35,113 bases of DNA from a virus, in IMG/VR virus record IMGVR_UViG_3300020442_003467, positions 1-35,113 of that record. The stretch is one strand, 5' to 3'. Made by a program: the position numbers and the translations under genes. A model generated the notes under the pieces. It had not been told where the DNA came from. It was given only the letters and a program-made list of their open reading frames with translations, and made no database searches. Each line of letters starts with the position of its first letter. Positions within the stretch are counted from its first letter, which is position 1. Shown in pieces: positions 2,645-35,113 of the stretch.

Positions 2645-3781
2645 ATGAAAATAGGAGTTACATTCGGTACAAGAGACCATTCGGAAACGGCACACAATAC
2701 TGGAATCTTACAGAATTCAGTTAACCTTGTCACGTGTTTAAATCATATACACGAAACGTGGTTGGTTCAAACTTGCTTTCCAATGGATAATAATAAAAAA
2801 TACGAATTCAACATTTATGATTACCCAGTTGTGGGAATAGATGAAATATTTAGGGACGAAAAGCTTTTTGGTTTTGATATGATGATTATTTTGGGTGGAG
2901 AGTTGGTAGATTCAGATCTGGAAAGTTTACAAAATGGAGGCGTAAAGGTCGTCTATTATAATTGTGGAGCAATGTATCAGCTCCATGTCATGGATGTTAT
3001 TTTTGGAAAAACAAAGGATGAAAAATATTGGAGAACCAGATACCAAAATTATGATGGAGTTTGGTGTATTCCCCAAAATTGGAAAAGAAATGAGTATTAT
3101 CAGAGGGTTTTATTTAGACAAGATGAAATACCAGACGTTCCATTTTTATACGATCCAACATTTATTGATAAAGGATTACATGCTTTAGATTCTAATTTTC
3201 AAAAAGCAGTGTACAAACCAAATAGAAGTGTAGGAAAACGACTTTCTATTATGGAATCTAATAGGGATTGGTTAAAAAATTATGTACAACCTTTGCTTAT
3301 CTCTGAATCAGTGTACCGTAAAAAACCAGAGTTAATAAGTCAAATATCAATAAACAATTTTGATGGGTTTAAAGATGTAAATTTAGATACACTTTTAGAA
3401 ACTATGGATGTATGGATGTCTAACAATACCATATCGTACGTAAATGGTTGGTTTCCAGTTTATGAATATTTAGAAACATACACAGATATTGTAGTTAGTC
3501 ATCAGAGAGATAACGAATTAAGTTATTATCCTTTAGATATTTTGTATTTAGAATATCCATTGGTGCACAATTACGGATTAATAAGGGACGCTGGTTATTA
3601 TTATGAAGATTGGAATTTTGATCAAGCAGAAGAAAAATTAGAAGAAGCTTTGCGCTTTCATGATACAAACTTAGATATATATAATCATAGAGCGAAAAAA
3701 GTTTTAGATCGATATTCACCGTTTAACGGAGACAATATCGATAAGTATAGTAAGTTAATAAAACAATACATAGGAGAATAA
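2645..3781 (+). CDS. DUF2827/GT-B-like putative glycosyltransferase
   Basis: 378 residues. It starts MKIGVTFGTRDHSET followed by GILQNSVNL, then a Rossmann-like stretch (FDMMIILGGELVDSDLESL, then VKVVYYNCGAMY). The second half contains VWMSNNTISYVNGWFPVYEY and an acidic region near SYYPLDILYLEYPLVHNYG, where GT-B enzymes bind the sugar nucleotide. The start and overall order resemble DUF2827 proteins, often found beside phage fibre genes and considered glycosyltransferase-like. AGGTGA precedes the ATG. Its place between fibre genes and a 2OG oxygenase suggests modification of a virion protein or host surface glycan. Family assignment is from memory; the substrate is unknown. Confidence 0.55.
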   Translation: MKIGVTFGTRDHSETAHNTGILQNSVNLVTCLNHIHETWLVQTCFPMDNNKKYEFNIYDYPVVGIDEIFRDEKLFGFDMMIILGGELVDSDLESLQNGGVKVVYYNCGAMYQLHVMDVIFGKTKDEKYWRTRYQNYDGVWCIPQNWKRNEYYQRVLFRQDEIPDVPFLYDPTFIDKGLHALDSNFQKAVYKPNRSVGKRLSIMESNRDWLKNYVQPLLISESVYRKKPELISQISINNFDGFKDVNLDTLLETMDVWMSNNTISYVNGWFPVYEYLETYTDIVVSHQRDNELSYYPLDILYLEYPLVHNYGLIRDAGYYYEDWNFDQAEEKLEEALRFHDTNLDIYNHRAKKVLDRYSPFNGDNIDKYSKLIKQYIGE

Positions 3782-4072: not shown

Positions 4073-5233
4073 ATGCCTGTTCCCTCCACTGGAGAAATTT
4101 CATTAGGCAAAATTGGAAAAGAACTCAGATCGACTGGTACTGGAGACGATTACGATAACGGACCCGATACGCAAAATGCAACAAGTCTAACGCAAGCCTC
4201 GACTGGTGCTATAGATGCACTAAACACGTCTAATTCATCGGCTAATAGACCTGATGGATCTACGCCTCATAATATGAGCGAATTTTATGCGTACGACCAT
4301 AATCTTGCAGGCTTAAGTCCTCCATCGGCTCTATCGTATATCTCATCAGCTACTAATACCATACAGTTTACGTTTGATGAACCTGCTGGTGCCACTAGAG
4401 TGTACTTTTTTCAAGGCCCTGATTCATCGATAACTGGTTGGAGTGAAGGAAGTCACGTAGTTATTAACGGTGCACAGTATGCCACAGTAAATGCTTCATC
4501 AACAACCTCAGTAACTGTAGGCGGTTCATCTTCTGATAGGTGGTATAATCCCTCTATTCCTAGTGAACAAATGATTGTATTGGGACCAAACGATTATTTG
4601 GATCTCAAGTATAAATCTTACGATGGTAGTACGTTTAGCGGGTTTAGTAATTCTATTAGAGGTTGGACCTTACCTGGATCAGCCACTAATCCTAATCAAT
4701 CAGCTGCTGAGACAGATGAAGTAGAAATAGAATGGGACGAACCAACTGGAGGAGCAAACTCGTATCAGATTTTCTTCGGTCCTAATGTGAATCCAACTGG
4801 AAATATGGTATCAGGAAGTCAAGAAATAGATTTAAGAACTGGTCTAACTGCAGGAGCAACTTATTATTTTAGAGTTAGAGCCGTTAATGGTGGAGGAAAT
4901 CTTGGAGCTTACTCTGCTAATTTCGACGTACAAACACTTCCTGCAACACCTACTGGATTAACTGGTACAGGATTTACCACATCTGTTGATTTAGATTGGA
5001 ATGATAACGCAATTGCACCAGATAATTACACAGTTCAGTATAAGCTATCAACTGCAATGAGTTACACTACATTTGCTACAGTAACTGCTTCAGAAGACCT
5101 TGTAACTGGCTTATCTTCTGGTTTAACTTATAATTTTAGAGTTAAGGCTAACAACGGAGCTGGATCATCAGGATATGCAACCACTACCGTATCTACCAGT
5201 GGTGGAGGTGGCGGAAAGCCAAAAGGACCTTGA
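4073..5233 (+). CDS. Fibronectin type III repeat virion protein
   Basis: 386 residues. The first ~75 residues (STGEISLGKIGKEL, then MSEFYAYDHN) are an N-terminal module seen in marine phage structural proteins. From about residue 80 come probably three FN3-like beta-sandwiches. The last two carry the diagnostic strands LTAGATYYFRVRAVN and LSSGLTYNFRVKANN. The C-terminus is a flexible Gly-rich tail (GGGGGKPKGP). FN3 domains in phages usually decorate tail or fibre proteins and may bind carbohydrate. RBS GGAGA. The stop overlaps the next ATG (TGATG). Likely a virion surface or fibre protein; exact position unknown. Confidence 0.8.
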   Translation: MPVPSTGEISLGKIGKELRSTGTGDDYDNGPDTQNATSLTQASTGAIDALNTSNSSANRPDGSTPHNMSEFYAYDHNLAGLSPPSALSYISSATNTIQFTFDEPAGATRVYFFQGPDSSITGWSEGSHVVINGAQYATVNASSTTSVTVGGSSSDRWYNPSIPSEQMIVLGPNDYLDLKYKSYDGSTFSGFSNSIRGWTLPGSATNPNQSAAETDEVEIEWDEPTGGANSYQIFFGPNVNPTGNMVSGSQEIDLRTGLTAGATYYFRVRAVNGGGNLGAYSANFDVQTLPATPTGLTGTGFTTSVDLDWNDNAIAPDNYTVQYKLSTAMSYTTFATVTASEDLVTGLSSGLTYNFRVKANNGAGSSGYATTTVSTSGGGGGKPKGP

Positions 5234-5901
5234 TGATTTTCGAACCTTTAAACTGTGCATTAAGTCATCTTGATATGGACGACCTTATTCCCGAACATAA
5301 TATTAGACAAAGGAGTATGACGGACTTTCTAATTAAACCAATCGATATGTATATGTTTGAAATGCCATGGGCTTCGAAGTTATTTTGTAAAGAGTTAATA
5401 GAAAAGGCAGAAGCAGCAGATCTATGGGGAAATTATGTTTCAGGTCCTTTGACACACGATACATTATTAAAGGATTTAGATAGTGAATTGGATGAATCTT
5501 ATACAAAACATCTTATCAGTATTATGTCAACAGTATGTATACATTTTTATGACTTAGCTCATGATTGGAAATTTACAGATGTTTTAAATTATGTGGTAAA
5601 ATATTCTCAAAACGATTTAGAATTAATGGAACCTCATCACGATACTACTGATTTAACTTTTAATATGCCACTTAATGATAAACAAGAATTTGAAGGTGGT
5701 GGTACGTATTTTGTTAGACAAAAATATTTACATTACGGAACGGTTGGAAATTTGACCGTTCATCCAAGTCAAATTACCCACAAACACGGTGCTAAACCAG
5801 TATTTAAGGGTGCAAGATATGCTTTAATTTCACTTTGTAGCAATGAAGATAAAGTAAGATATAATTCAATTAAGGAGAACAACAATGAAAACGACTTTTG
5901 A
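5233..5901 (+). CDS. 2-oxoglutarate/Fe(II)-dependent oxygenase (prolyl/lysyl hydroxylase type)
   Basis: 222 residues from the ATG at 5233. A TTG one codon upstream is possible, but the ATG overlaps the preceding stop and has AAGGA at good spacing. Fe(II) ligands are visible: H135-x-D137 in EPHHDTTDL, the distal His H185 in THKHGAKPV, and R195 ten residues later as the 2-oxoglutarate anchor. Between them lies FEGGGTYF, typical of procollagen-lysyl/prolyl 4-hydroxylase enzymes. The expected reaction is hydroxylation of a protein side chain with decarboxylation of 2-oxoglutarate. It sits between fibre genes and the endolysin, close to a putative glycosyltransferase, suggesting virion protein modification. 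Fold confident; substrate unknown. Confidence 0.85.
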   Translation: MIFEPLNCALSHLDMDDLIPEHNIRQRSMTDFLIKPIDMYMFEMPWASKLFCKELIEKAEAADLWGNYVSGPLTHDTLLKDLDSELDESYTKHLISIMSTVCIHFYDLAHDWKFTDVLNYVVKYSQNDLELMEPHHDTTDLTFNMPLNDKQEFEGGGTYFVRQKYLHYGTVGNLTVHPSQITHKHGAKPVFKGARYALISLCSNEDKVRYNSIKENNNENDF

Positions 5902-6361
5902 TGAAATAATAGACGTAGTTCTACATCATGAGGGTGGTTACGTTAATGACCCGAAAGATCCCGGTGGAGAAACCAATTATGGAATTTCTAAAAGGGCTTA
6001 TCCAGATGTAGATATTAAAAACCTTACAGAAGATGGAGCAAAGGATATTTATAGAAGAGATTACTGGGAAAAAAATCGTTGCGAAGACCTTCCAGAAGAT
6101 CTACGTCATGTCTATTTTGATATGTGTGTTAACATGGGAAGAGGTAGAGCAACAAAAATAATGCAAGAAACTGCTAATGCTAAGGGTGCAGGTTTGAAGG
6201 TTGATGGAGGAATGGGTCCAAAAACAATCGGAGCACTGCAAAATGTTCGACTTCAAAGAGTTCGTGCTTATAGAGTAAAGTATTATGCAAATCTTGTTGA
6301 GAGAAAACCAGACCTTGAAAAATTTTATTATGGCTGGTTTAAACGAAGCTTAGAAGTTTAA
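5885..6361 (+). CDS. Endolysin, GH108 muramidase with peptidoglycan-binding domain
   Basis: 158 residues, beginning inside the end of the oxygenase gene with its own SD (AAGGAG). The N-terminus has the GH108 signature HHEGGYVNDPKDPGG followed by ETNYGIS; Glu16 in HEGGY is the expected catalytic acid. The second half (LKVDGGMGPKTIGAL, then RVKYYANLV and FYYGWFKR) matches the PG_binding_3 domain that normally follows GH108. Length fits the ZliS/secretion-activator muramidase family. No signal peptide or transmembrane segment is seen, so release would need a holin or a virion-associated role; no holin is obvious nearby. Confidence 0.92.
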   Translation: MKTTFDEIIDVVLHHEGGYVNDPKDPGGETNYGISKRAYPDVDIKNLTEDGAKDIYRRDYWEKNRCEDLPEDLRHVYFDMCVNMGRGRATKIMQETANAKGAGLKVDGGMGPKTIGALQNVRLQRVRAYRVKYYANLVERKPDLEKFYYGWFKRSLEV

Positions 6362-6837: not shown

Positions 6838-9800
6838 ATGTCTAAATCATTTGGAAAGAATATTGCGTATAGTGTAATTTACGGGGTAGATGCTGTTGTA
6901 ATAGATGATGATTTTATAGAATCATTTATTCCAAAATCTAAAGTCTTGTCAGAAAGCAGTAAAGTTCAAGGAGTTTACAGCGATGAAGGATTGTACGACT
7001 TTTATAATGGGTTTAGTAGCTATAAAAAAGTTACAAAGGAAAAAGCAGCAAAGGTTTTGGGTTGGAAAATTGTTGACTATATTATAGATAAAAGGGCCAA
7101 CGATCCATTCTTTGAATTGAATATGATGGTAGATGATGGTTCTGGAATGAAGGGTAGAGCGAATACGGTTTCCTATGGCGGTACGGTATTAACTGGTGAT
7201 AAATCACTAGATTCAGGTGATTACAAGTATATGAAGGAGATGGATCAGATTGTTAACGCACTAGGATGGGATGTGATAAAATATATGGGCGTTGGTCCTA
7301 ATAGAAAGAGTAAAGTTGTAGTAATTCCTTCTAAGGATATGGAAAAGATGGCAGACAAAGTAAATGAATCTGTTATTCGTATTCGTTACAATGAAGAATT
7401 CGGTGCACCACCTGGAATGCTTCCTTCTCCAAGTAGAAAGGGTGTAAAGAAAGCGAAGAAGAGAAAAGATAGATCAATATATTCTGAACAAGAAAATAAT
7501 ATTGAAAAGTTGGTAGCAATTTATCCTGGTAGATTTCAACCCTTTGGACCACATCATAAGAAGTCATACGAATTTTTAAAGTCTAGATTTGATATTGTTT
7601 ATATAGCCACTAGTGATAAATCTGGAGGATCTAGACACCCAATGAATTTTTCCCAGAAGAAAAAACACATGATGAAAATGGGAATACCGTCTTCAGCTAT
7701 AGTAAAGGAAAGACAAGTATATGTTCCTAAAAAATTAATGTCAAAATTTGATGGAGATACAACTGCTTTTGTTTTTGGAGTTGGTGCAAAAGATGAAGGA
7801 AGATTAACTGGCGGAAAATATTTTAAACAGTATAGAAAAAATTATAATAGATTAAAGGGTTTTGATCATCATGGGTACACATTAGAAATACCACATACTA
7901 GCATACGAGTGGGTGGAATGGAAATAAGCGGTACAACAATGAGAAAACTTTTAGGCTCTGAAGAATTTGATATTAAATTAAAGAAAAAGTTTTTTAAGAA
8001 AATGTTTGGATATTTTGATCAGAAAACCTTTGAAATGTTTACTGGTGTTTTTAAAGAAGAAATAAAATTAGATGTAGAAATAGGTGATACAATTTTAGTT
8101 GGTAGATTTAAAAATAAAAAGATGAAGGTTAAGTCTATTGGAAAAGATAAACATGGTATGCCAACAATAAACGGAAGAAAAGTAGTAACATTTAGAAAAC
8201 TACAAGAAGATAAAAAAACATATAAAGCAATAAATAAAGATTCTGGAAAAGTAGCAACGTTCGATAGCGAAGCTGCAAGAGATGCTGCAATAGATAAAGG
8301 AACACATTCTTCAGTTGTAACCAAAAAACAAAAAGCTAAGAAAAAATTTAAAGCACCAAAAATTAAGATACCTAGCTTTGCTGATTTACAAAAGAAAAAA
8401 GCAGAAAAGAAAGCAAAGTATGGCAATAAACCACGTAAACCAAATATTGTTGATGGTGTAGATGTAATTAGAAACGAAGATGATTTAGAACATTTTAAAT
8501 ATAAGTTTACGAAAGAAGCTGAAACAGTTGATAATGTAAATGATTATGGCGACCGTGTAGCAGAACAGTATAGACGTCAAAAAGAAAATATGCCAGAAGA
8601 TCAACGTAGACAATTAGAAGACGATGCACAAAGCTGGAAAAAACTTGGAGGTTATGAAGCAATACAGGATGCAATAAGAAATGGTGAGATCTCAGAGCAA
8701 GATATAAGAGACAGAAACGAAAGAATGAGTGAAACTGCACATACAAGTGTGGTAAAAATTGAACAACCTATAGAACGTGGAATTGTTATTCCAACAGAAG
8801 ATGTCGATACATTTTTAGATAGATTTGTAGAGGGTGAAATGGTTGAAATACCAGATGAAAGTGGCCACGGTTCCAGTGGGTTTAGTTTAAGTGCACGTAC
8901 AGCTAGATTTTTTAGTAAACCAACAAACGATTATGAAGATGAAGCGTCTATTCTTATACGTATAGAACCAAACGAAAACGGTGAAGTAAGAGGTTTGTAT
9001 ATAGACGGAGAAGATAATGACTTTGCCAGTGAACAAGAACTAATAAGGAGTTCTAAATCTAAAGCAAAGGTTAAATCTATAGAAAGGGTAAAATATCCAA
9101 GTGGAAAAATGGTGATTATAGTAACGCTACAAGAACCAAATGAATTGACAGAATCCACAGTAGATTTGGTTGATAAAGAAGTTGGAGATGAGCTCTCTAA
9201 AAAATATTTGGAAGGACCTTTAAATCCAGATCCTGGAAGTGTAAAGGAAAATTATACATTTGGTAAAGATTGGATTCCAACAAGTTTAGCACAAAGAAAA
9301 AAGATGAAGAGAATTCATCAAAAATTAAATCGTAGTATAAGAGAACAAAAGGAGTTATTACTTATGGGAGGAGCCTATGGTCACATGGCACACCCGTTTG
9401 ATGATTATGGATTAACCTTCGGAGAACTGAAGGATATAATAGACTTAGGGTTACAGGGTAAATTAGACAAAGAAGAAGCCGTCACAGAAAAATTAGACGG
9501 TCAAAATATAATGATTTCTGCAATTGATGGTATAGCTGTTGCTGCAAGAAATAAGGGTGATTTAAAAAGAGGTGGTATGGATTTAAAGGGTGTAAGGGCA
9601 AAATTTGCAAATCACATACAGAGTGTTAAAGATGCATTTGTATTTTCTATGAAGGATATTGCGTCATCAGTTGAAAAAATGAGTAAGAAAGATCAAGAGT
9701 CGTTATTTGCTAACGGTAAAAACTGGGCAAACATAGAAATAATATATCCAGAAAATAAAAACGTTATAGATTATGATGGTCCAGCAACCATTGTTTTTCA

Positions 9801-10596
9801 TGGTATATTAAAATATAACGAAGCTTGGACTCCATCTGGAGAAGTAAAATCTGGAGGTGCAAAATTAGCAGCTATAATTAATAAAGTTAACAAGAATATA
9901 AAGACAAAGTTTGCATTTAAGGGTCCAAATGTAATTACTATGCATAAGGATAAAGATTATTCAGCTAAGAGGTCAAAATATATCGGCGCTTTGAACAAGT
10001 TACAGAATATATATAGATTAAAGGATAGTGATGAATTATCGTTATATCATCAACATTTTTGGTTGGAATACATATTAGCAGGAGCAAACTCCTCAGATTA
10101 CAAGAATATCCCAGACAATGTATTATATCCTCTTATGAAAAGATGGGCATTTTCTGATAAAAGTTATAAGATGACACAAATAAACAAGTTAAAGGACAAT
10201 CATCCAAAGTTTGTAGATTGGGTAAAATCAACAGAAAAATTAGATCATGCAAAAATGCTAAAGGATAATATGAGACCATTTGAAGAAATATTCTTTGGAG
10301 TTGGAGCAGAAATATTATCAAATGCTAGTAACTATTTAAGCGTTAATCCAAGTAAAACTGCAAAAAAACTAAGAGATGATTTGGCAAAGGCTGCTAAAAC
10401 TCTAATGGCCAAAAAGGATTTTTCTAATGTCGATAAACTTAAAGCACAATTGAAAAAACTAAAAGCAATGCCAGGATTAGAAAAAGCAGCACCAACTGAA
10501 GGATTAGTTTTCAAATATAAGGGTAAAGTTTATAAGTTTACAGGATTCTTTGCACCGATTAATCAAATTTTAGGATTAGAAAAATTTAGCAGGTAA
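6838..10596 (+). CDS. Multidomain protein: nucleotidylyltransferase + ADP-ribosyltransferase + RNA-ligase-like
   Basis: 1252 residues, SD TTGGAGAG. N-terminal ~200 residues unrecognised. Residues 226-372: HIGH-type nucleotidylyltransferase (GRFQPFGPHHKK at 231-242, with first motif His replaced but H240 kept; ISGTTMRKLL at 363-372), resembling NMN adenylyltransferases. About 415-465: a small SH3-like module (GDTILVGRFKNKK), then a Lys-rich linker. About 640-765: an R-S-E ADP-ribosyltransferase pattern (R647 in IERGI; FSLS at 682-685; E732-Q-E734), spaced as in the VIP2/Alt class. About 850-1250: ligase-type domain with K885 in EKLDG, NWANIEIIYP at 962-971 and EGLVFK at 1221-1226 with later Lys. 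Upstream of the terminase, it could be an Alt-like injected protein. The ligase and transferase motifs are strong; ART is a by-eye call. Confidence 0.75.
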   Translation: MSKSFGKNIAYSVIYGVDAVVIDDDFIESFIPKSKVLSESSKVQGVYSDEGLYDFYNGFSSYKKVTKEKAAKVLGWKIVDYIIDKRANDPFFELNMMVDDGSGMKGRANTVSYGGTVLTGDKSLDSGDYKYMKEMDQIVNALGWDVIKYMGVGPNRKSKVVVIPSKDMEKMADKVNESVIRIRYNEEFGAPPGMLPSPSRKGVKKAKKRKDRSIYSEQENNIEKLVAIYPGRFQPFGPHHKKSYEFLKSRFDIVYIATSDKSGGSRHPMNFSQKKKHMMKMGIPSSAIVKERQVYVPKKLMSKFDGDTTAFVFGVGAKDEGRLTGGKYFKQYRKNYNRLKGFDHHGYTLEIPHTSIRVGGMEISGTTMRKLLGSEEFDIKLKKKFFKKMFGYFDQKTFEMFTGVFKEEIKLDVEIGDTILVGRFKNKKMKVKSIGKDKHGMPTINGRKVVTFRKLQEDKKTYKAINKDSGKVATFDSEAARDAAIDKGTHSSVVTKKQKAKKKFKAPKIKIPSFADLQKKKAEKKAKYGNKPRKPNIVDGVDVIRNEDDLEHFKYKFTKEAETVDNVNDYGDRVAEQYRRQKENMPEDQRRQLEDDAQSWKKLGGYEAIQDAIRNGEISEQDIRDRNERMSETAHTSVVKIEQPIERGIVIPTEDVDTFLDRFVEGEMVEIPDESGHGSSGFSLSARTARFFSKPTNDYEDEASILIRIEPNENGEVRGLYIDGEDNDFASEQELIRSSKSKAKVKSIERVKYPSGKMVIIVTLQEPNELTESTVDLVDKEVGDELSKKYLEGPLNPDPGSVKENYTFGKDWIPTSLAQRKKMKRIHQKLNRSIREQKELLLMGGAYGHMAHPFDDYGLTFGELKDIIDLGLQGKLDKEEAVTEKLDGQNIMISAIDGIAVAARNKGDLKRGGMDLKGVRAKFANHIQSVKDAFVFSMKDIASSVEKMSKKDQESLFANGKNWANIEIIYPENKNVIDYDGPATIVFHGILKYNEAWTPSGEVKSGGAKLAAIINKVNKNIKTKFAFKGPNVITMHKDKDYSAKRSKYIGALNKLQNIYRLKDSDELSLYHQHFWLEYILAGANSSDYKNIPDNVLYPLMKRWAFSDKSYKMTQINKLKDNHPKFVDWVKSTEKLDHAKMLKDNMRPFEEIFFGVGAEILSNASNYLSVNPSKTAKKLRDDLAKAAKTLMAKKDFSNVDKLKAQLKKLKAMPGLEKAAPTEGLVFKYKGKVYKFTGFFAPINQILGLEKFSR

Positions 10597-26986: not shown

Positions 26987-29245
26987 ATGGCACAAATAAT
27001 TAAACTTAGACGTTCGTCTACGGCTGGTAAAGTTCCAACTACATCAGATTTAAATTTAGGCGAATTAGCAATAAACACCAATGATGGTCGAATATTCTTC
27101 GAAAAGAACGATGGCTCGGCCGCAATAAAACACGTTGTAACATCAGACTCCCAAACAACAGGATCAATTGAGATAACAGGAAACGTAAGCGGTTCAGCAA
27201 CCTCAACTGGTTCGTTTGGACATGTCAAAGCTGTCAGTTCTGTATTTACAAACCTTATAGAAAATGTTGCTGGAAGCTCTTTGAAGATAAAATCTCCTGG
27301 TAACGACATTATACTTGACACTGGGGATAACGATATTCAATTGTATTCTGGTGGTAGTGAGTTTGCAAGATTAACAAATGATAGTAATACCCTCGCTATA
27401 AAATCTTCAACGAGTAACGCTGATATAGTATTTAATGGAGTTGATTCAGGTGCTAATATAACAGCATTAAGATTAGATATGTCTGAAGCTGGTAAAGCGA
27501 TATTTAATTCAGATGTTAGTGGTTCAGCTACCTCAACAGGTTCGTTTGGTAGAGGGTTTATTGTAGATTCGTTAAATCTTAATAATAATGCAGAATTAAG
27601 ATTAGGACCAGAACCATATCATGCCAAATTAGAATATAATAATAACGGTAATTTAGATATAACCGGAAGAAGTGGTTTTGATGTAGATATAGTTCATGGT
27701 GACCTTATTCTTACTGAAGGTGGTATCAATGTAAAGGGTGATAATGTTAGAATAACTGGTTCATTATCTGTTAGTAATGAAATACAAACTGCAAATGATT
27801 TTATAGTAAATTCTTCAGGTCGAGTTGGTATAAACACTCTAGCTCCTGATTACAAGTTAGATGTTGCTGGAAATATGGGTGTTAACGAGTACATTTACCA
27901 TAATGGAGACTCTAACACATACGTTAGATTTCAAAATGATCAGGTTGATTTATCTGCAGGTGGAAATGTATTTCAAATAACGTCTACTTCTCTTAGTGGT
28001 TCTGGTACTAGTACTGGTTCATTTGGAAGATTAGAAGTTAACGCAAATACAATATCTATTGGTGGAACAGAACTATCTAAAACTGTTGCAGATAATATTA
28101 CAGGTTTAGATCAGGAATTGGGTACAGATGCTAAGCCTGCTTTTAGCGCGCTTACTGCTTCTAATGCTATTCATATAGGATCAACATCGTTTACCATATC
28201 TCAAAATGGTGATGGAGATGCTGAGATAGATACAGACTTAGTCGTTCTTGGAGACATAACTGCCCAGAATTATATTGTAAGTTCTTCAATAACTCACTTG
28301 ACACAATCATTCAGTAGTGGTTCAACGGTATTTGGAGATACAGGTGACGATACACATCAGTTTACAGGTTCATTATTTGTGTCTAATAGTTTGGCAATAA
28401 ATACTAATGGTAGTAGAGGTGCTATAGATGTAATGGGATCAGCTGCAATTCAAGGATTTTATGTTTCTGATTATGGAACTGCTGTTGCTTTACCAACTGA
28501 TATTGTACACTCAGGTGGAGGTGGTACATTCGATCCTCAAGTAAGAAACCTTAGAATGGGAACTTCTACTGGTGGCCCTATTTCGATTTATCCAAAATAT
28601 GATTATAAGTTTAATTTAGGAACAGCTCAAGATAATGATTTATTGGTGTTATCTGGTAGTAAGGTAGGAATTGGAACAACATCACCCGTATATGGTCTAG
28701 ATGTTAGAAATACAGGTTACTTTGCAACAGTAGCAGCTTCTAATCAATTAACATTGGGTGACACTACTAACGGAACAACATCTGCGTTTAATTCAGTTAA
28801 TAATACTTTAGCTATTAAACCAGATGGAAGCAATACACATCTTACAATTTCAACCACACAAATAAGTGGTTCAGGTGCTTCTACTGGTTCTTTTGGTCAC
28901 TTATTAGTAGATGGTCAAAAACCATTGACTCCTCGTCAGAAAGCCATAACTGGTACAACTACAACTGCTATAGATTTTAAGGATTCAAATAATTTTAAAG
29001 TTTCACTAACTGGTGATGTTACGATAAGTTCTAGTAATGAAGCCCATTCAATTGGTTCTTCTGGTATGATTGTTTTAGTTCAAGATGCATCTGGTGGTCA
29101 TACCGTGACCTTGCCTTCTTCTTTCAAAACTCCAAGGGGTGATGATATTGCTTTTACTTCTGGATCAAACGATATAAGTATTATTTCTTACTACGTAATT
29201 GATGGATCTAACGTCGCTATCAACTACATGGGTAATTTTTCATAG
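26987..29245 (+). CDS. Fibre/structural protein with MAQIIK module and STGSFG repeats
   Basis: 752 residues with the start MAQIIKLRRSSTAGK and LGELAINTNDGRIFFEK, the same N-terminal module as the gene at 24571. Four SGS(A/G)xSTGSFG motifs occur (near residues 68, 178, 340 and 630), each followed by a short beta segment. A KVGIGTTSPVYGLDV stretch is typical of fibre repeat regions. The C-terminal domain (IVLVQDASGGHTVTLPS, ISIISYYVIDGSNVAINYMG) is a conserved end of marine phage fibres. SD GAGGAG. Probably a trimeric fibre or appendage protein encoded beside its paralogue. Confidence 0.83.
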   Translation: MAQIIKLRRSSTAGKVPTTSDLNLGELAINTNDGRIFFEKNDGSAAIKHVVTSDSQTTGSIEITGNVSGSATSTGSFGHVKAVSSVFTNLIENVAGSSLKIKSPGNDIILDTGDNDIQLYSGGSEFARLTNDSNTLAIKSSTSNADIVFNGVDSGANITALRLDMSEAGKAIFNSDVSGSATSTGSFGRGFIVDSLNLNNNAELRLGPEPYHAKLEYNNNGNLDITGRSGFDVDIVHGDLILTEGGINVKGDNVRITGSLSVSNEIQTANDFIVNSSGRVGINTLAPDYKLDVAGNMGVNEYIYHNGDSNTYVRFQNDQVDLSAGGNVFQITSTSLSGSGTSTGSFGRLEVNANTISIGGTELSKTVADNITGLDQELGTDAKPAFSALTASNAIHIGSTSFTISQNGDGDAEIDTDLVVLGDITAQNYIVSSSITHLTQSFSSGSTVFGDTGDDTHQFTGSLFVSNSLAINTNGSRGAIDVMGSAAIQGFYVSDYGTAVALPTDIVHSGGGGTFDPQVRNLRMGTSTGGPISIYPKYDYKFNLGTAQDNDLLVLSGSKVGIGTTSPVYGLDVRNTGYFATVAASNQLTLGDTTNGTTSAFNSVNNTLAIKPDGSNTHLTISTTQISGSGASTGSFGHLLVDGQKPLTPRQKAITGTTTTAIDFKDSNNFKVSLTGDVTISSSNEAHSIGSSGMIVLVQDASGGHTVTLPSSFKTPRGDDIAFTSGSNDISIISYYVIDGSNVAINYMGNFS

Positions 29246-29270: not shown

Positions 29271-32200
29271 ATGCCAGGTGGATTTGGATTTTTTAAAGAG
29301 TTTAAGTTTAACACAACTTATACGACTTCTAGATCAACAACGACTACGTTTCAGACTACCACTACGTTTCAAACTACCACTACGTTTAATACCAGTAAGT
29401 CTACTACTACGACTTATAATACAACTACTTCGACAACTACAACGTATACAACAAATAGGTCGACTACTACAACATTTAATACAAGTAAGTCTACTACGAC
29501 TACTTACACCACAACGTTTGCAACAAGCAGAACAACTGAAACTACAAGATCTACTAATACTACTACAACGTATACAACTACGTTTGAAACTACACGCTCA
29601 ACGTCTACTAGTAGAAGTACAAATACAGTAACCCAATACACTACTACTTTTGAAACCTCTAAAAGTACGTCTACTAGTAGATCTACAACCACTCAATATA
29701 CTACGTTTTTCCCAACGTCTAGGTTGACAACTATACAAACAGTTACTCAGTATACAACTACGTTTGCAACTACACAAACAACAACTACAACATTTCAAAC
29801 TAACACAATTACTCAGTATACAACAACATTTGAAACTAGTAGATCTACAGATACAACAATTAATACGACTACAACTTATACAACTACGTTTGAAACGAGT
29901 AGATCTACGAATACTAGTAGATCAACAAACACAACTACTACTTATACCACTACGTTTGCAACAAGTAGGGCAACCAACACTATCATACAAACAAATACTA
30001 CAACCACGTATACAACATATTTTCAAACATCTAGATCTACAGAAACAAGTAAAACAACGAATACTGTTACTCAATACACTACTACTTTTGCAACGAGTAG
30101 ATCTACAACTACGACTATACAGACAAATACTGTAACTCAATACACTACAACATTTGCTACTAGTAGATCAACAAATACAATAATTCAAACTAATACCGTA
30201 ACGACGTATACGACATTTTTTGAAACTAGTAGAAGCACAAATACAAGTAGAAATACAAATACAACTACTCAGTACACTACTACTTTTGCAACCAGTAGAT
30301 CTACAACTACAACTATACAGACAAACACAACTACTCAATATACAACTACGTTTGCAACAAGCAAAACAACTGCGACAACATTTCAAACTAATACAGTAAC
30401 GCAATATACTACTACGTTTGCAACGAGTAGAACAACTGAGACAACATTTCAAACTAATACAATTACACAGTATACAACAACGTTCGCAACTAGTAAATCG
30501 ACATCAACATCCAGATCAACTAATACAACTACGACGTATACGACATCATTTCAAACAAGTAAAAATACGTCTACTAGTAGATCTACAACCACTCAGTATA
30601 CTACGTTTTTTAATACTAGTAGCATTACAAATAGAACTACAACAACTGTTTTTGTTACTGGGTTCGAAACGTCAAGTATTACGAATAAGTCTACTACAAC
30701 TACGTTTAATACAAGTAGAACAACATCTAGTATTACAAACAGAACTACAACGACTTCGTTTGAAACTACTACAACATTTAATACGTCAAGCATTACAAAC
30801 AGGACTACTTCCACTACTACTGTTTTTACAACTACGTTTAATACGAGTAGTATAACAAATAGAACTACTAGCACCACTACAACATTTAATACGACCATTA
30901 ATACATCTAGAACTACTACGTTCCAGACAACATTTAATACAAGTAGGTCTACAAATACAACTACTACCTACACTACTACGTTTGCAACGAGTAGAAATAC
31001 AAATACGACTACAACATACACAACAACATTTGCAACAAGTAGAACTACTAATAGAACTACAACTACACAGTATACGACTACATTTGCAACGAGTAGAAAT
31101 ACAAATACGACTACTACTTATACTACTACGTTCGCAACAAGTAGAACCACAAATAAAACTACAACTACTACGTTTACCACAACATTTAATACGTCAAGTA
31201 TAACCAACAGAACTACGTCAACAACAACTACATTTAACACCAGTAGCATTACTAATCGAACTACTAATACTGTTTTTACAACTACGTTTAATACAAGTAG
31301 CATTACAAACAGAACTACAAATACGACTACAACTTTTCAAACAAGTAGTATTACAAATAAGACTACTTCTACAACGACTACATTTAATACAAGTAGTATT
31401 ACAAATAAAACTACGTTGACCACATTCACTACTACGTTTCAAACATCTAGTATTACAAACAGAACTACGTCTACAACTACTACATTTAACACTAGCAGTA
31501 TTACAAACAGAACCACTAACACAGTGTTTACTACTACTTTTCAAACATCAAGTATTACGAATAGAACTACTTCGACAACCACGACGTTTGGAACATCTAG
31601 TATAACCAACAGAACTACGTCAACAACTACTACGTTTAATACGAGTAGTATTACTAATAAGACTACTTCTACGACCACTACATTTCAAACTAGTAGTATT
31701 ACAAATAAAACTACTAACACGGTATTTACTACGACATTCCAAACTAGTAGCATTACAAGCAAATCTACGACAACTGTTTTTGTTACAGGGTTCGAAACTT
31801 CTAGTGTAACAAATAAGACTACTTCTACGACCACTACATTTCAAACATCTAGTATTACGAGTAAAACTACTAACACTGTTTTTACTACTACTTTCCAAAC
31901 TAGTAGCATTACGCATCTAACTACTAATACGGTGTTCACTACTACTTTCCAAACTAGTTCAGGTACGAGTCATACTACGTCTACGACCACTACATTTACT
32001 ACTACTATACAGACAAACACAACTACTACGTATACCACAGAGTTCAATACTAGTAGATCGACTAATACTACGACTCAGTATACAACATATTGGCAGACAA
32101 GTAGGAGCACAAACACAAATACCCAATACACCACGTATTTTACTACTAGTAGGTCTACAAATACTAATACGCAATATACAACATATTTTAATACAAGTAG

Positions 32201-33824
32201 ATCTACAAACACAAATACACAATACACAACGTATTTTCAGACAAGTAGAACGACGCATCTAACTACTAACACAGTGTTTACAACTACGTTTGGCACGAGT
32301 AGTATTACAAATAGATCTACGTCCAGAACTACTACGTATCAAACTAGTAGATTGACTAATCATGCTACAACCACAACATTTAATACTACGTATGAAACAA
32401 ATAAAACTACAACTACTCAGTATACATCTCAATGGATAACTTACTATAGTACGAGCAGTAGTACGAGCAGTATTACTAATAGAAATACAAATACGACTAC
32501 AATTTTTACTACTACTTATAATACGAGTAGGTCTACTACTACAAAGTTTAATACCAGTACATCTCGCAATACGACAGAGAGTAGAAGCACTGTTACGAAG
32601 TATACTACAACTACTACGTTTACAACTACGTATACCACTACGTATAATACTACATTTCAAACAAATAGACAAACGTATAGGTACACTTATTTTTTAACAA
32701 GTAGAGCTACGGACAAAACGACTACGTATAACACATCTAGAACAACGACATACGCAACGTACTATACGACGTCTTGGAATACAGGTGGCTGTTTATGGGA
32801 GGGTCATTTCTTACAAATGGCAAATGATTCTAATGTCGAACTTGTGAATGCAACAGAGTGGACAACGGCACAAAACGACGAAGATCATGACATAACATTA
32901 TGGAGTGGATCTGGAGATGATGCTTATCCAATATCTGCAAGTTTACAATACGTAAAAAGTATACGTTTACCTGGATTACCAACTGGCTCAAATTTTGCAG
33001 ATGATGTATTTGAAAATTATGAGAATTGGAGAGGCACACAAGAACAAATAGATTCGGCTTCTATGTCTCCAGCATTTATAAAGGGAGTATTTAAGTCTTC
33101 GTTTGATGTGTATTATTCGATGTTCTTGGAAAACGGTAAAGAAATAAAATTTAGTTGGGATCATCCTACATTTATTAAGCGAGATGGAGAATATAGATTC
33201 GTATTAGCACAAGATATAACAACATCAGATCAGGTAATGGACATAAACAAGAATTTGATTGATGTTACTTCAATGTCTTTTCAATCCGAATCCATAAATA
33301 TGGTAGAATTAAATGTTGAAGAAAAAGACGTTTACTTCGTAGAAGATATTTTATTTCATAATGCATTCAAGTGTTTCATGCCAGATCAGTTGATTTCAAT
33401 GGCAGATGGAGAGTTAAAAGAAATACAATATGTTGATGTTGGAGAAATGATACTTGCTTGGGATGAAAATAGCAATTCAGTAAAAGAAAGTGAAGTTTGC
33501 GAAATACAAACAAAGATGCACGATGATGTATATGAAATGACATTAGCAAACGGAAAGAAATTAAAACCAACTGGTAACCACCCATTCTTAATTTTTGGAA
33601 AGGGTTGGTGTACGATTGATAAGTATGAGCTAAACCATGGTGGTGGAACAGGGGTGATAAACGTTGGGGATGAAGTATACGATGTATCGAGTGGAGTTCC
33701 CGAGAGAGTAAAGGTCACGAAGCTCGAGCCAATAGAGGGAGCATTTACAACGTATAACTTTATAGATACAGAGTATAAGACTATCATTGCAGATGGTATA
33801 ATTACACACAATACAGGAAAATAG
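29271..33824 (+). CDS. Giant Thr-rich repeat protein ending in two tandem Hint (intein-like) domains
   Basis: 1517 residues, SD AGGAGAG. After a short start (MPGGFGFFKEFKF), residues ~14-1170 are Thr/Ser repeats with Tyr/Phe at regular intervals; about half of all residues are Thr. The first type is ~22 residues (QYTTTFATSRSTTTTIQTNT), the second ~16 (TTTFNTSSITNRTTST), later QYTTYFNTSRSTNTN. Residues 1174-1364 and 1368-1514 are two Hint domains (own entries), after which only TGK remains before TAG. Regular aromatic spacing suggests a beta-solenoid or extended fibre; dense Thr/Ser could be glycosylated. Repeats at protein level use mixed Thr codons. Next to fibre genes, so virion or surface-associated is likely; function unknown. 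Confidence 0.85.
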   Translation: MPGGFGFFKEFKFNTTYTTSRSTTTTFQTTTTFQTTTTFNTSKSTTTTYNTTTSTTTTYTTNRSTTTTFNTSKSTTTTYTTTFATSRTTETTRSTNTTTTYTTTFETTRSTSTSRSTNTVTQYTTTFETSKSTSTSRSTTTQYTTFFPTSRLTTIQTVTQYTTTFATTQTTTTTFQTNTITQYTTTFETSRSTDTTINTTTTYTTTFETSRSTNTSRSTNTTTTYTTTFATSRATNTIIQTNTTTTYTTYFQTSRSTETSKTTNTVTQYTTTFATSRSTTTTIQTNTVTQYTTTFATSRSTNTIIQTNTVTTYTTFFETSRSTNTSRNTNTTTQYTTTFATSRSTTTTIQTNTTTQYTTTFATSKTTATTFQTNTVTQYTTTFATSRTTETTFQTNTITQYTTTFATSKSTSTSRSTNTTTTYTTSFQTSKNTSTSRSTTTQYTTFFNTSSITNRTTTTVFVTGFETSSITNKSTTTTFNTSRTTSSITNRTTTTSFETTTTFNTSSITNRTTSTTTVFTTTFNTSSITNRTTSTTTTFNTTINTSRTTTFQTTFNTSRSTNTTTTYTTTFATSRNTNTTTTYTTTFATSRTTNRTTTTQYTTTFATSRNTNTTTTYTTTFATSRTTNKTTTTTFTTTFNTSSITNRTTSTTTTFNTSSITNRTTNTVFTTTFNTSSITNRTTNTTTTFQTSSITNKTTSTTTTFNTSSITNKTTLTTFTTTFQTSSITNRTTSTTTTFNTSSITNRTTNTVFTTTFQTSSITNRTTSTTTTFGTSSITNRTTSTTTTFNTSSITNKTTSTTTTFQTSSITNKTTNTVFTTTFQTSSITSKSTTTVFVTGFETSSVTNKTTSTTTTFQTSSITSKTTNTVFTTTFQTSSITHLTTNTVFTTTFQTSSGTSHTTSTTTTFTTTIQTNTTTTYTTEFNTSRSTNTTTQYTTYWQTSRSTNTNTQYTTYFTTSRSTNTNTQYTTYFNTSRSTNTNTQYTTYFQTSRTTHLTTNTVFTTTFGTSSITNRSTSRTTTYQTSRLTNHATTTTFNTTYETNKTTTTQYTSQWITYYSTSSSTSSITNRNTNTTTIFTTTYNTSRSTTTKFNTSTSRNTTESRSTVTKYTTTTTFTTTYTTTYNTTFQTNRQTYRYTYFLTSRATDKTTTYNTSRTTTYATYYTTSWNTGGCLWEGHFLQMANDSNVELVNATEWTTAQNDEDHDITLWSGSGDDAYPISASLQYVKSIRLPGLPTGSNFADDVFENYENWRGTQEQIDSASMSPAFIKGVFKSSFDVYYSMFLENGKEIKFSWDHPTFIKRDGEYRFVLAQDITTSDQVMDINKNLIDVTSMSFQSESINMVELNVEEKDVYFVEDILFHNAFKCFMPDQLISMADGELKEIQYVDVGEMILAWDENSNSVKESEVCEIQTKMHDDVYEMTLANGKKLKPTGNHPFLIFGKGWCTIDKYELNHGGGTGVINVGDEVYDVSSGVPERVKVTKLEPIEGAFTTYNFIDTEYKTIIADGIITHNTGK
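29310..32780 (+). repeat. Thr-rich coding repeat array
   Basis: In-frame repeats of 48-66 bases built from ACN codons, with ACTAGTAG and TTT/TAT as recurring landmarks. About 29700-30600 holds the 22-residue type, about 30610-31970 the SSITNRT type and about 32040-32260 the QYTTYF type. Copies vary by synonymous codons, so long exact repeats are rare. Antisense frames read as Val/Leu- or Cys/Ser-rich and are not genes. Confidence 0.9.
32790..33362 (+). other. Hint domain 1 (intein/BIL-like) in the Thr-rich protein
   Basis: Encodes residues 1174-1364 (191 residues). It opens with Cys1174 in GGCLWEGHFLQMANDS (block A pattern C-L-x2-G-x-x-L-x-M-A). A block B-like FSWDHPTFIK carries the conserved His. 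It closes with VYFVEDILFHN (blocks F and G). The residue after the terminal Asn is Ala1365, not Ser/Thr/Cys, so normal splicing is not expected; this matches A-type bacterial intein-like domains, which mostly cleave. No endonuclease domain is visible. Confidence 0.72.
33372..33812 (+). other. Hint domain 2 (mini-intein-like) in the Thr-rich protein
   Basis: Encodes residues 1368-1514 (147 residues), three residues (AFK) after domain 1. Cys1368 begins CFMPDQLISMADGELKEI (block A). LKPTGNHPFLIFGKGW is block B with conserved Thr and His. It ends YKTIIADGIITHN, blocks F/G with the His-Asn pair, and the following residue is Thr1515, a valid +1 nucleophile. Size fits a mini-intein without endonuclease. 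All splicing residues appear present, but only Thr-Gly-Lys follow before the stop. Confidence 0.85.
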
Positions 33825-33825
33825 T

Positions 33826-35113
33826 GTGCCAGTAACTAGTAGACAAACGAGCAGAAATACATCAAGAACGACTACGTATAACACGTCTAGAACTACGGTT
33901 TTCAATACCTCGTGGAATACATCTAGGATTACCGTGTATACAACATATTGGAACACTACTAGGAGTACGAGTAGAACTACATCTAAGTCGACTAATAGAA
34001 GTACAGCTGTACAGCATAACACTACGACTGAGTATACGACTAGTACTACGTTTGCAACTGAAACTTTAAAGTCTACTACTACAACGTATACAACAAATAA
34101 GTCGACAACTAGAAGTACAAATACGACTACTACCTATACAACTACCTATACAACTACTTGGCAAACTTACAGACCGACAAGTACCATAACGAATAAGAGT
34201 ACGACTACTGTATATAATACAAGCAAAAGTACCAATCATAGTACGACCACTGAATACACTACGTATTTTCAAACTAGCAAAACTACAACATTCGTAACAC
34301 AATACACAACAACATTTGCAACTAGTAGAAGTACCAATCATAATACGATCACTGAGTATACAACATATTTTCAAACTAGCAGCATTACGAATAAATCTAC
34401 GAATACAACTACTTCGTGGCAAACTTCTAGCATTACGAACAAATCTACGAATACAACTACTTCGTGGCAAACTTCTAGCATTACGAATAAATCTACGAAT
34501 ACAACTACATCATGGCAGACCAGTAGTATAACAAACAAAACTACGTCTACGACTACTTCGTGGCAAACTTCTAGTATTACGAATAAAACTACGACAACTG
34601 AAACAACTTATAGCACTAATCGAAGTACTAACACGACTACTGAGTACACTACGTATTTTGAAACCAGTAGAACAACAAATAAAAATACTGTAACACAATA
34701 CACTACGTATTTTCAGACTAGCAGAAGTACAAATAGAAATACAACGACTGAGTATACGACATATTTTCAAACTAGTAGAAGTACAAATACTGTAACGCAA
34801 TACACTACGTATTTTCCAACAAGTAGAACCACTAATAGAGCTACAACGACCGAGTATACGACATATTTTCAAACTAGTAGAAGTACAAATAGAAATACAA
34901 CTACTCAATACACCACATATTTTCAGACAAGTAGATCTACCAATACTGTAACTCAGTATACAACTACGTTTGCAACTAGCAGAACTACTAATACAACGAC
35001 TCAGTATACAACTTCATTTGCAACTAGTAGATCTACTAACACTACGACCACGTATACGACATATTTTCAAACTAGTAGGACTACAAATAGAAATACGACT
35101 ACTCAGTACACTA
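33826..35113 (+). CDS. Thr-rich repeat protein (3' partial), possibly continuing the preceding gene
   Basis: 429 codons open to the window end with no stop. A GTG start at 33826 has AGGA (33815-33818) seven bases upstream and lies one base after the TAG of the preceding gene, so restart is plausible. The start (VPVTSRQTSRNTSRTTTYNT) resembles the segment just before Hint domain 1 (TTTYNTSRTTTYATYYTTSW). The body has ~18-residue units (TEYTTYFQTSRSTNRNTT) and 16-residue units (SITNKSTNTTTSWQTS). Its frame is +1 relative to the upstream gene; one base less in the AAAA at 33818-33821 would join the two as one protein. Function as for the upstream repeat protein: unknown, probably an appendage. 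Confidence 0.75.
   Translation, partial: MPVTSRQTSRNTSRTTTYNTSRTTVFNTSWNTSRITVYTTYWNTTRSTSRTTSKSTNRSTAVQHNTTTEYTTSTTFATETLKSTTTTYTTNKSTTRSTNTTTTYTTTYTTTWQTYRPTSTITNKSTTTVYNTSKSTNHSTTTEYTTYFQTSKTTTFVTQYTTTFATSRSTNHNTITEYTTYFQTSSITNKSTNTTTSWQTSSITNKSTNTTTSWQTSSITNKSTNTTTSWQTSSITNKTTSTTTSWQTSSITNKTTTTETTYSTNRSTNTTTEYTTYFETSRTTNKNTVTQYTTYFQTSRSTNRNTTTEYTTYFQTSRSTNTVTQYTTYFPTSRTTNRATTTEYTTYFQTSRSTNRNTTTQYTTYFQTSRSTNTVTQYTTTFATSRTTNTTTQYTTSFATSRSTNTTTTYTTYFQTSRTTNRNTTTQYT
34381..34572 (+). repeat. Four tandem 48-base units
   Basis: Units start at 34381, 34429, 34477 and 34525 and each encodes SITNKSTNTTTSWQTS or a close variant. The first two differ by a single base and the third departs only near its end, while the fourth differs at many synonymous sites. 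This indicates a recent duplication inside an otherwise codon-scrambled array. Confidence 0.9.

Follow-up and report, generated by a model that had tools for sequence, protein, structure and literature searches.

What do two adjacent threonine-rich open reading frames (ORFs), lying directly behind a tail-fibre gene, contribute to the phage that carries them? The question is raised by IMG/VR record IMGVR_UViG_3300020442_003467, whose 35,113 bases (the whole stretch analysed, hereafter the window) were taken as a linear fragment of a T4-like phage. By ORF call and translation, ORF A (29271..33824, plus strand, ATG start) encodes a Thr-rich repeat protein of 1,517 residues with a tandem Hint C-terminus; ORF B (33826..35112, plus strand, GTG start) encodes a second Thr-rich repeat protein and is still open at the window end after 429 residues. 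We conclude that the two ORFs probably encode long rod-like beta adhesins or extension fibres, combined with at least one of three further properties, namely docking on the neighbouring fibre, self-processing and glycosylation.

Repeats with a two-residue alternation

A first reading of this DNA (the sequence-only reading) had described two adjacent Thr-rich open frames with more than 1,500 repeat residues, about half of them Thr. This description stands: we count 1,600 repeat residues, 1,171 in ORF A and 429 in ORF B, with Thr at 47.7% of the ORF A repeat and 42.4% of ORF B. The accompanying figure of 5.8 kb of repeat coding sequence has to be trimmed, the repeat being real but the stretch 32784-33824 belonging to Hint-type domains. 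The repeat region of ORF A (29310..32783, plus strand) is also rich in Ser (12.6%, so that Thr and Ser together make up about 60%), Phe (7.2%), Arg (4.8%) and Tyr (4.4%), and poor in Glu (1.3%), Gly (0.7%), Asp (0.2%) and Pro (0.2%). The claim that charged residues other than Arg are few holds for Glu and Asp and is slightly off for Lys, at 1.9-2.8% of the Thr-rich repeats. In keeping with the sequence-only reading, the repeats with so little Gly do not follow a collagen-like Gly-X-Y pattern, nor does their Pro content agree with the Pro/Thr/Ser-rich, Pro-containing repeats of mucins. Unit lengths of 16, 18 and 22 residues are indeed the commonest distances from one TS[RKS] motif to the next in ORF A (20, 9 and 7 times, respectively), to which spacings of 4, 6, 8, 12, 14, 20 and longer ones of up to 46 residues must be added; all are even. 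The ORF A repeats, ORF B and the repeat ORF of a related locus (L003) gave no match to Pfam or PHROGs profiles, in searches where low-complexity sequence may be filtered.

The even spacings reflect an alternation that runs through both proteins. Numbered from the start of ORF A, all Asn (93/93), Val (19/19) and Ala (18/18) and nearly all Gln (45/46) and Glu (14/15) fall on one parity, and aromatic residues (124/138) and Arg, Lys and His (77/82) on the opposite one. The combined parity score is 366/404 for ORF A and 153/177 for ORF B, against maxima of 62 and 53 in 2,000 residue shuffles and 10/694, 23/301 and 32/292 in control ORFs. Across 149 distinct ORFs of the family, aromatic-to-aromatic spacings are even in 7,814 cases and odd in 922, the odd ones being mainly 1 and 3; this count and those of related ORFs and loci given below (88, 71 and 122 loci) rest on the matches listed in a scan of IMG/VR. 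Pairs of 16-residue units identical in protein sequence differ 9, 8 and 76 times at codon positions 1, 2 and 3, respectively; repeat copies thus differ mostly at silent sites, and the repeat is genuine coding sequence. Parity far beyond the shuffles and differences biased to third positions together indicate selection on the protein pattern.

With Gly and Pro practically absent, an alternation of this kind suggests beta strands in extended conformation whose two faces differ. In the elongated shaft that the repeats would build, successive residues would point to opposite sides, one face carrying Thr, aromatic residues and Arg/Lys, and the other Ser, Thr, Asn, Gln, Val and Ala. By a rule of 12-20 residues per nm (PMC3556154), the ORF A shaft, if folded, would measure some 60-100 nm. 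Modelling consecutive units as a monomer, a check advised in the sequence-only reading, gave an answer in part: an AlphaFold model of 176 repeat residues shows regular strands of 10-13 residues, yet at low confidence (pLDDT 40, pTM 0.32). Of the beta-solenoid suggested there, the strict period-2 pattern supports the beta structure, and the model at this pLDDT does not carry the solenoid or any other fold. Nothing was found in favour of an ice-binding array; in a comparison with ice-binding TxT repeats, Thr occupies both parities in ORF A (346/213) and the unit length is variable.

Tandem Hint domains at the end of ORF A

The C-terminal 346 residues (about 1.04 kb) of this ORF are non-repeat and consist of two tandem Hint (intein-like) domains, in whose sequences a slash marks the putative cut sites below. 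On its profile matches Hint-2 (33372..33812, plus strand) can be firmly assigned. It runs from CFMPDQL through KPTGNHPF to DGIITHN/T and is recognized by Pfam Intein_splicing (9.3e-11, 42.2 bits, cutoff 35.8) and, with the N-terminal Cys in place, by NCBIfam TIGR01445 intein_Nterm (33.2 bits, cutoff 24.5); its sequence matches in the PDB are the Pho RadA intein (5.4e-4) and the bacterial intein-like (BIL) domain 2lwy (0.002), and its end follows the intein rule of HN and then Thr (IITHN/TGK). Hint-1 (32790..33362, plus strand), from GG/C through FSWDHPTF to VEDILFHN/A, matches PDB entries weakly (MJ0781 2jmz, E=0.084; BIL domain 2lwy, E=0.15). By alignment it has a LENGK.IK...HP block in common with Hint-2 (E=2e-4), and both domains carry the Cys1, HP and HN landmarks, while the Cys, Ser or Thr expected at position +1 of an intein is replaced in Hint-1 by Ala (HN/AFK). 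Lacking a strong database match, Hint-1 is a likely rather than a certain member of the family.

ORF A does not have the layout of an intein interrupting two functional exteins, as Hint-2 is followed by TGK and a stop codon only. Since splicing would join a mere three residues, cleavage appears to be the more natural outcome. The Hint domains may thus cut themselves and the C-terminus off, by Asn cyclisation at HN and through a thioester at GG/Cys. One C-terminal Hint domain each is found in the Thr-rich ORFs of relatives L007, L024, L065 and L071, ending in HN/K, HN/N or HN/R, and another in L097, where the locus ends before the HN site. Cys1 and the block-B His are present in all of these Hint domains, and HN in the six that could be read to their end (two in the window and four of the five in relatives).

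Pfam found Hint/intein families and no Peptidase_S74 at the C-terminus of ORF A. By sequence pattern, 15 Thr-rich ORFs among the matches listed have an S74-like C-terminus (backed in relative L084 by a Pfam match of 26.6 bits, cutoff 22), six a Hint and eight a CxRGC[IM] end; the others have the shaft only (42), another motif (9) or an unclassified end (72, including truncated ORFs and second genes). The Hint domains occupy the place that the self-cleaving S74 trimerisation chaperone holds in relatives. ORF A and its relatives share with S74-ended fibres and tailspikes (endosialidase-type intramolecular chaperones) the fibre locus and this C-terminal place, and the corresponding locus of a close relative of the window encodes an S74 fibre; ORF A stands apart by its two Hint domains and by a shaft whose repeats differ from those of known tailspikes. 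The domains resemble BIL/Hint domains in Cys1, the block-B His, the C-terminal HN, the match to 2lwy and their C-terminal fusion to a long, repetitive protein of surface type, and differ in standing in tandem behind a Thr-rich phage shaft with a three-residue tail after Hint-2.

A tblastn search with the Hint part returned, from other phages, inteins and virion proteins and no close relative, and a search for related loci with the same part found none; a match in the huge phage LR756508 was discarded as a counterpart, its locus being without a Thr-rich ORF. In Stenotrophomonas phage DLP6 (KU682439.2, L130 1-1655), an unannotated frame open from the record start, with a Hint-like end (SHN/V) and no Pfam match, directly precedes a homologue of the transferase family described below. 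Methyltransferase-like genes of about 350 residues between Thr-rich genes (L039 1824-2870 and similar ones) have a weak C-terminal Intein_splicing match and are possibly a further Hint fusion in these loci.

A recurring module of fibre end, threonine-rich gene and predicted glycosyltransferase

A profile search of marine viromes had been advised in the sequence-only reading, and the family does prove to be widespread. A degenerate repeat pattern found at least 120 stretches of IMG/VR with a Thr-rich ORF and, in 84,980 bacterial and archaeal genomes, one contig, itself phage-like. In all, 158 copies were read among the matches listed, the longest an open-ended ORF of 2,873 residues, with two or more copies in 40 of 122 loci; in two-gene loci, methyltransferase-like genes often stand between the Thr-rich genes. 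No description of such proteins was found in the open-access literature. A tblastn search of cultured phages with the repeats gave no match, such sequence being lost to low-complexity filtering. The L003 repeats, used as a blastn query, matched weakly here and there, chiefly in repeat-bearing staphylococcal phages, and these matches were put down to chance. First genes fit the loose pattern GF..K.[DE][FW]..T in 50 of 85 starts listed, truncated ORFs included, and second genes typically start with MPNTSRST or similar. The window conforms on both counts: ORF A, starting MPGGFGFFKEFKFNTT, is of the first-gene type, its anchor-like N-terminal peptide MPGGFGFFKEFKF (29271..29309, plus strand) having the pattern common to relatives, and ORF B, starting MPVTSRQTSRNTSR (MPVTSRQTSR), is of the second. 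A Shine-Dalgarno-like AGGA (33815..33818, plus strand, read from the sequence) lies 7 nt 5' of the ORF B GTG and overlaps the end of ORF A.

The tail-fibre-like gene directly 5' of ORF A (26987..29245, plus strand; weak match to phrog_29752) follows, in gene order, terminase, Gp20 portal, prohead protease, Gp23 capsid and tail-sheath stabiliser genes. Its last ~140 residues (VTLPSSFKTPRGDD, ending VAINYMGNFS; 28823-29242, plus strand) form a C-terminal domain that we propose as a docking end. A hidden Markov model (HMM) seeded solely on these 140 residues of the window's own fibre detected the domain, for 56 of 71 loci, in the gene that directly precedes the Thr-rich ORF; 65 of 66 domain matches were C-terminal. 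When 34 loci were fetched by similarity to the window fibre, the end domain and a Thr-rich ORF were found together in one (L141) only; the 33 without a visible Thr-rich ORF also lack the end domain, but many are cut at contig ends, which makes absence weaker evidence than presence.

Over a run of four structural genes, from capsid to sheath stabiliser, the close relatives L141 and L142 share about 80% identity (77-86%) with the window. The window capsid protein shows 53% identity to its counterpart in an uncultured phage of 484 kb and 51% to that of Microcystis phage Mel-JY01. L141 has the fibre end of the window followed by a Thr-rich gene, cut by the contig end as in the window, whose first residues (MPGGFGFFKKYQW) nearly equal those of ORF A. 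The L142 fibre has the same first 80 residues and an S74-like end (read by eye), after which comes the tail sheath; neither a Thr-rich ORF nor the transferase is present at this locus. This swap marks the Thr-rich genes as a cassette of the receptor locus rather than a fixed part of the phage group. The co-occurrence suggests that the N-terminal peptide GF..K.[DE][FW] may dock on the C-terminal domain of the upstream fibre, in the manner of a separate adhesin at the tip of a tail fibre, a proposal to which we give even chances. The gp38 proteins of T2/S16-type phages are separate tail-fibre-tip adhesins of this kind: their gene directly follows that of the fibre, and they probably dock on its end. 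The Thr-rich proteins differ from them in having no Gly-rich segments and in their putative beta repeats of up to 2,873 residues.

Downstream of the Thr-rich gene or genes, members of a single transferase family of about 300 residues are found within three genes in 84 of 88 distinct loci, immediately adjacent in 82, and in no other position of these loci among the matches listed. The 88 are the loci with any ORF downstream, 25 more ending too early, and the count comes from an iterative HMM grown from a single seed, which replaced an earlier count aligned from the next genes themselves; in a first, less strict count the transferase was on the same strand in 89 of 89 cases. By sequence the family corresponds to PHROG 26179, of unknown function, and KPHP and SE motifs are conserved in it. 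Sequence searches of Pfam and the PDB returned nothing useful, and the fold search alone was informative: the AlphaFold model of the L003 copy (pLDDT 92.5) has a GT-B fold, with the Kdo transferases KpsC, WbbB and KrkA as best matches (Z ~9-10 over ~220 residues; for KpsC, VIA Z 10.1, 218 residues aligned, 3.9 A). The protein is thus predicted to be a KpsC/WbbB-like glycosyltransferase. It resembles the CMP-Kdo transferases KpsC and WbbB (GT107/GT99), and CMP-sialyl/polysialyl transferases, in the fold across its length and in the KPHP and SE motifs, and differs in its low identity (10-13%) and in adjoining a fibre gene, not capsule genes.

Such an enzyme may decorate Thr and Ser residues of the fibre from a CMP-sugar, and glycosylation of the fibre is to us a slightly less than even prospect. 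Of the mucin-like, heavily modified fibre suggested earlier, the modification receives indirect support from the linked transferase, and mucin in the strict sense falls with the Pro content. As far as the citing account goes, mycobacteriophage capsid and tail-tube proteins are glycosylated (Freeman et al. 2023, cited in PMC12619734), an instance of phage-encoded virion glycosylation that involves other proteins and other enzymes. Among cultured phages, Caulobacter phages Lullwater and BL198 have in a row a tail fibre, a Thr/Ser/Tyr-rich ORF of 215-217 residues (gp41 and gp046, respectively) and a transferase of the same family (gp42 and gp047), and in Cr30 a Tyr/Thr-rich ORF of 116 residues precedes the transferase homologue. 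These ORFs share with the Thr-rich genes their place between tail fibre and transferase; at 116-217 residues and 20-27% Thr, and without strict alternation, they are counterparts by position and not proven homologues.

Transferase homologues KVP40 gp0256 and D484_0305 (L128, L129) of Vibrio phages lie near queuosine and NAD-salvage genes. A small Ala/Thr/Gly-rich repetitive protein (MLGFxAxSE...) recurs one to two genes after the transferase (L023 1014-1682, L028 9201-9860, L067 4946-5512, L076 5145-5762 and others). Two further genes of the window were considered as fibre-modifying enzymes and rejected, as nothing links either to the fibre: an Fe2+/2OG oxygenase (5230-5901) and a DUF2827 protein (2645-3781; Pfam 1.3e-68) encoded between fibre genes and an fn3 protein.

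Weighing the appendage against its alternatives

That the Thr-rich proteins are a phage appendage is likely. The long appendage of the sequence-only reading gains support from their position after a fibre gene in a structural cluster, the linked fibre end domain, the S74 and Hint modules of relatives and the cassette swap between close relatives. ORFs A and B would lie in the receptor-recognition locus between the tail-fibre gene and downstream structural genes. Several findings weigh against our interpretation. The repeat model is of low confidence, and 15 of the 71 loci have another upstream gene, some of them of another subgroup (MAIKIWDGD starts). The window ends inside ORF B, before any glycosyltransferase gene, and its own is expected just beyond the edge. 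The homologues of Vibrio phages KVP40 and D484 lie away from fibre genes, so that the transferase need not act on the fibre, and the Caulobacter counterparts do not show the strict alternation.

The fibre might also be real and unmodified, with the transferase altering host surface sugars to the exclusion of other phages and linked to the fibre through a shared host-recognition island. Just such a role has been argued for glycosyltransferases of the pelagimyophage host recognition cluster (PMC7029224), and the location of the Vibrio homologues agrees with it. A loose gene island would not, however, predict linkage so tight that one kind of gene is immediately next in nearly all loci and always downstream, and we regard this alternative as rather unlikely. 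Still less likely is that the Hint domains are mobile inteins in decay that do nothing for the fibre. Hint-1 lacks the +1 nucleophile, and the Lys, Asn or Arg after HN in relatives would fit such decay, but in six Thr-rich genes Hint forms the extreme C-terminus, with nothing useful left for an intein to join, the Hint landmarks (Cys1, block-B His and, where readable, HN) are kept throughout, and the Pfam scans gave no homing endonuclease domain above cutoffs.

A disordered mucin-like brush, its Thr/Ser chains held extended by dense O-glycans, would account for the abundance of Thr and Ser, the transferase linkage in relatives and the low pLDDT of the repeat model. It would have no need of a strict alternation over 1,171 residues with aromatic residues and Arg on one side, and the scarcity of Pro and the S74 of relatives, a module of folded fibres, make it improbable. 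Very improbable, finally, is a functional amyloid or a secreted surface protein of infected cells that is found outside the virion: even-spaced aromatic ladders in a Thr/Asn/Gln-rich beta sequence could stack as cross-beta, and curli-related genes are present in pelagimyophages (PMC7029224), but no secretion signal is seen by eye at the N-terminus, and the position in the structural cluster, the tight coupling to the fibre end domain and the swap against an S74-ended fibre all weigh against it.

Elsewhere in the window, positions 1-2343 hold a 5'-truncated fibre gene that ends in S74 and contains long Ala/Thr/Gln/Ser repeats, with units of 21 residues and multiples thereof (TRF periods 63, 84, 126 and 294). 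A lysozyme-like endolysin (GH108 and PG_binding_3) is encoded at 5885-6361, and an ORF of 1,252 residues without Pfam, PHROG or NCBIfam match lies just before the terminase genes (6838-10596).

Most of the parts by which abundant marine phages recognise their receptors lack annotation, and the recurring module of fibre end domain, Thr-rich shaft and glycosyltransferase is recognisable in metagenomes. We tentatively suggest that it represents a widespread, undescribed class of appendage, a very long Thr-rich, strictly alternating beta fibre that is encoded with its own CMP-sugar glycosyltransferase, docks on a dedicated end domain of the fibre before it and matures through interchangeable self-processing S74 or Hint C-termini. 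If this is true, the class would be a sugar-coated phage tail fibre, with a methyltransferase-like gene between the Thr-rich genes in some loci. Its strict two-residue alternation without Gly or Pro poses a question of fold for structural biology, and the cultured Caulobacter phages with a short counterpart make glycosylation of the fibre by a phage enzyme testable, raising the question of whether such glycosylation changes adsorption, diffusion or recognition.

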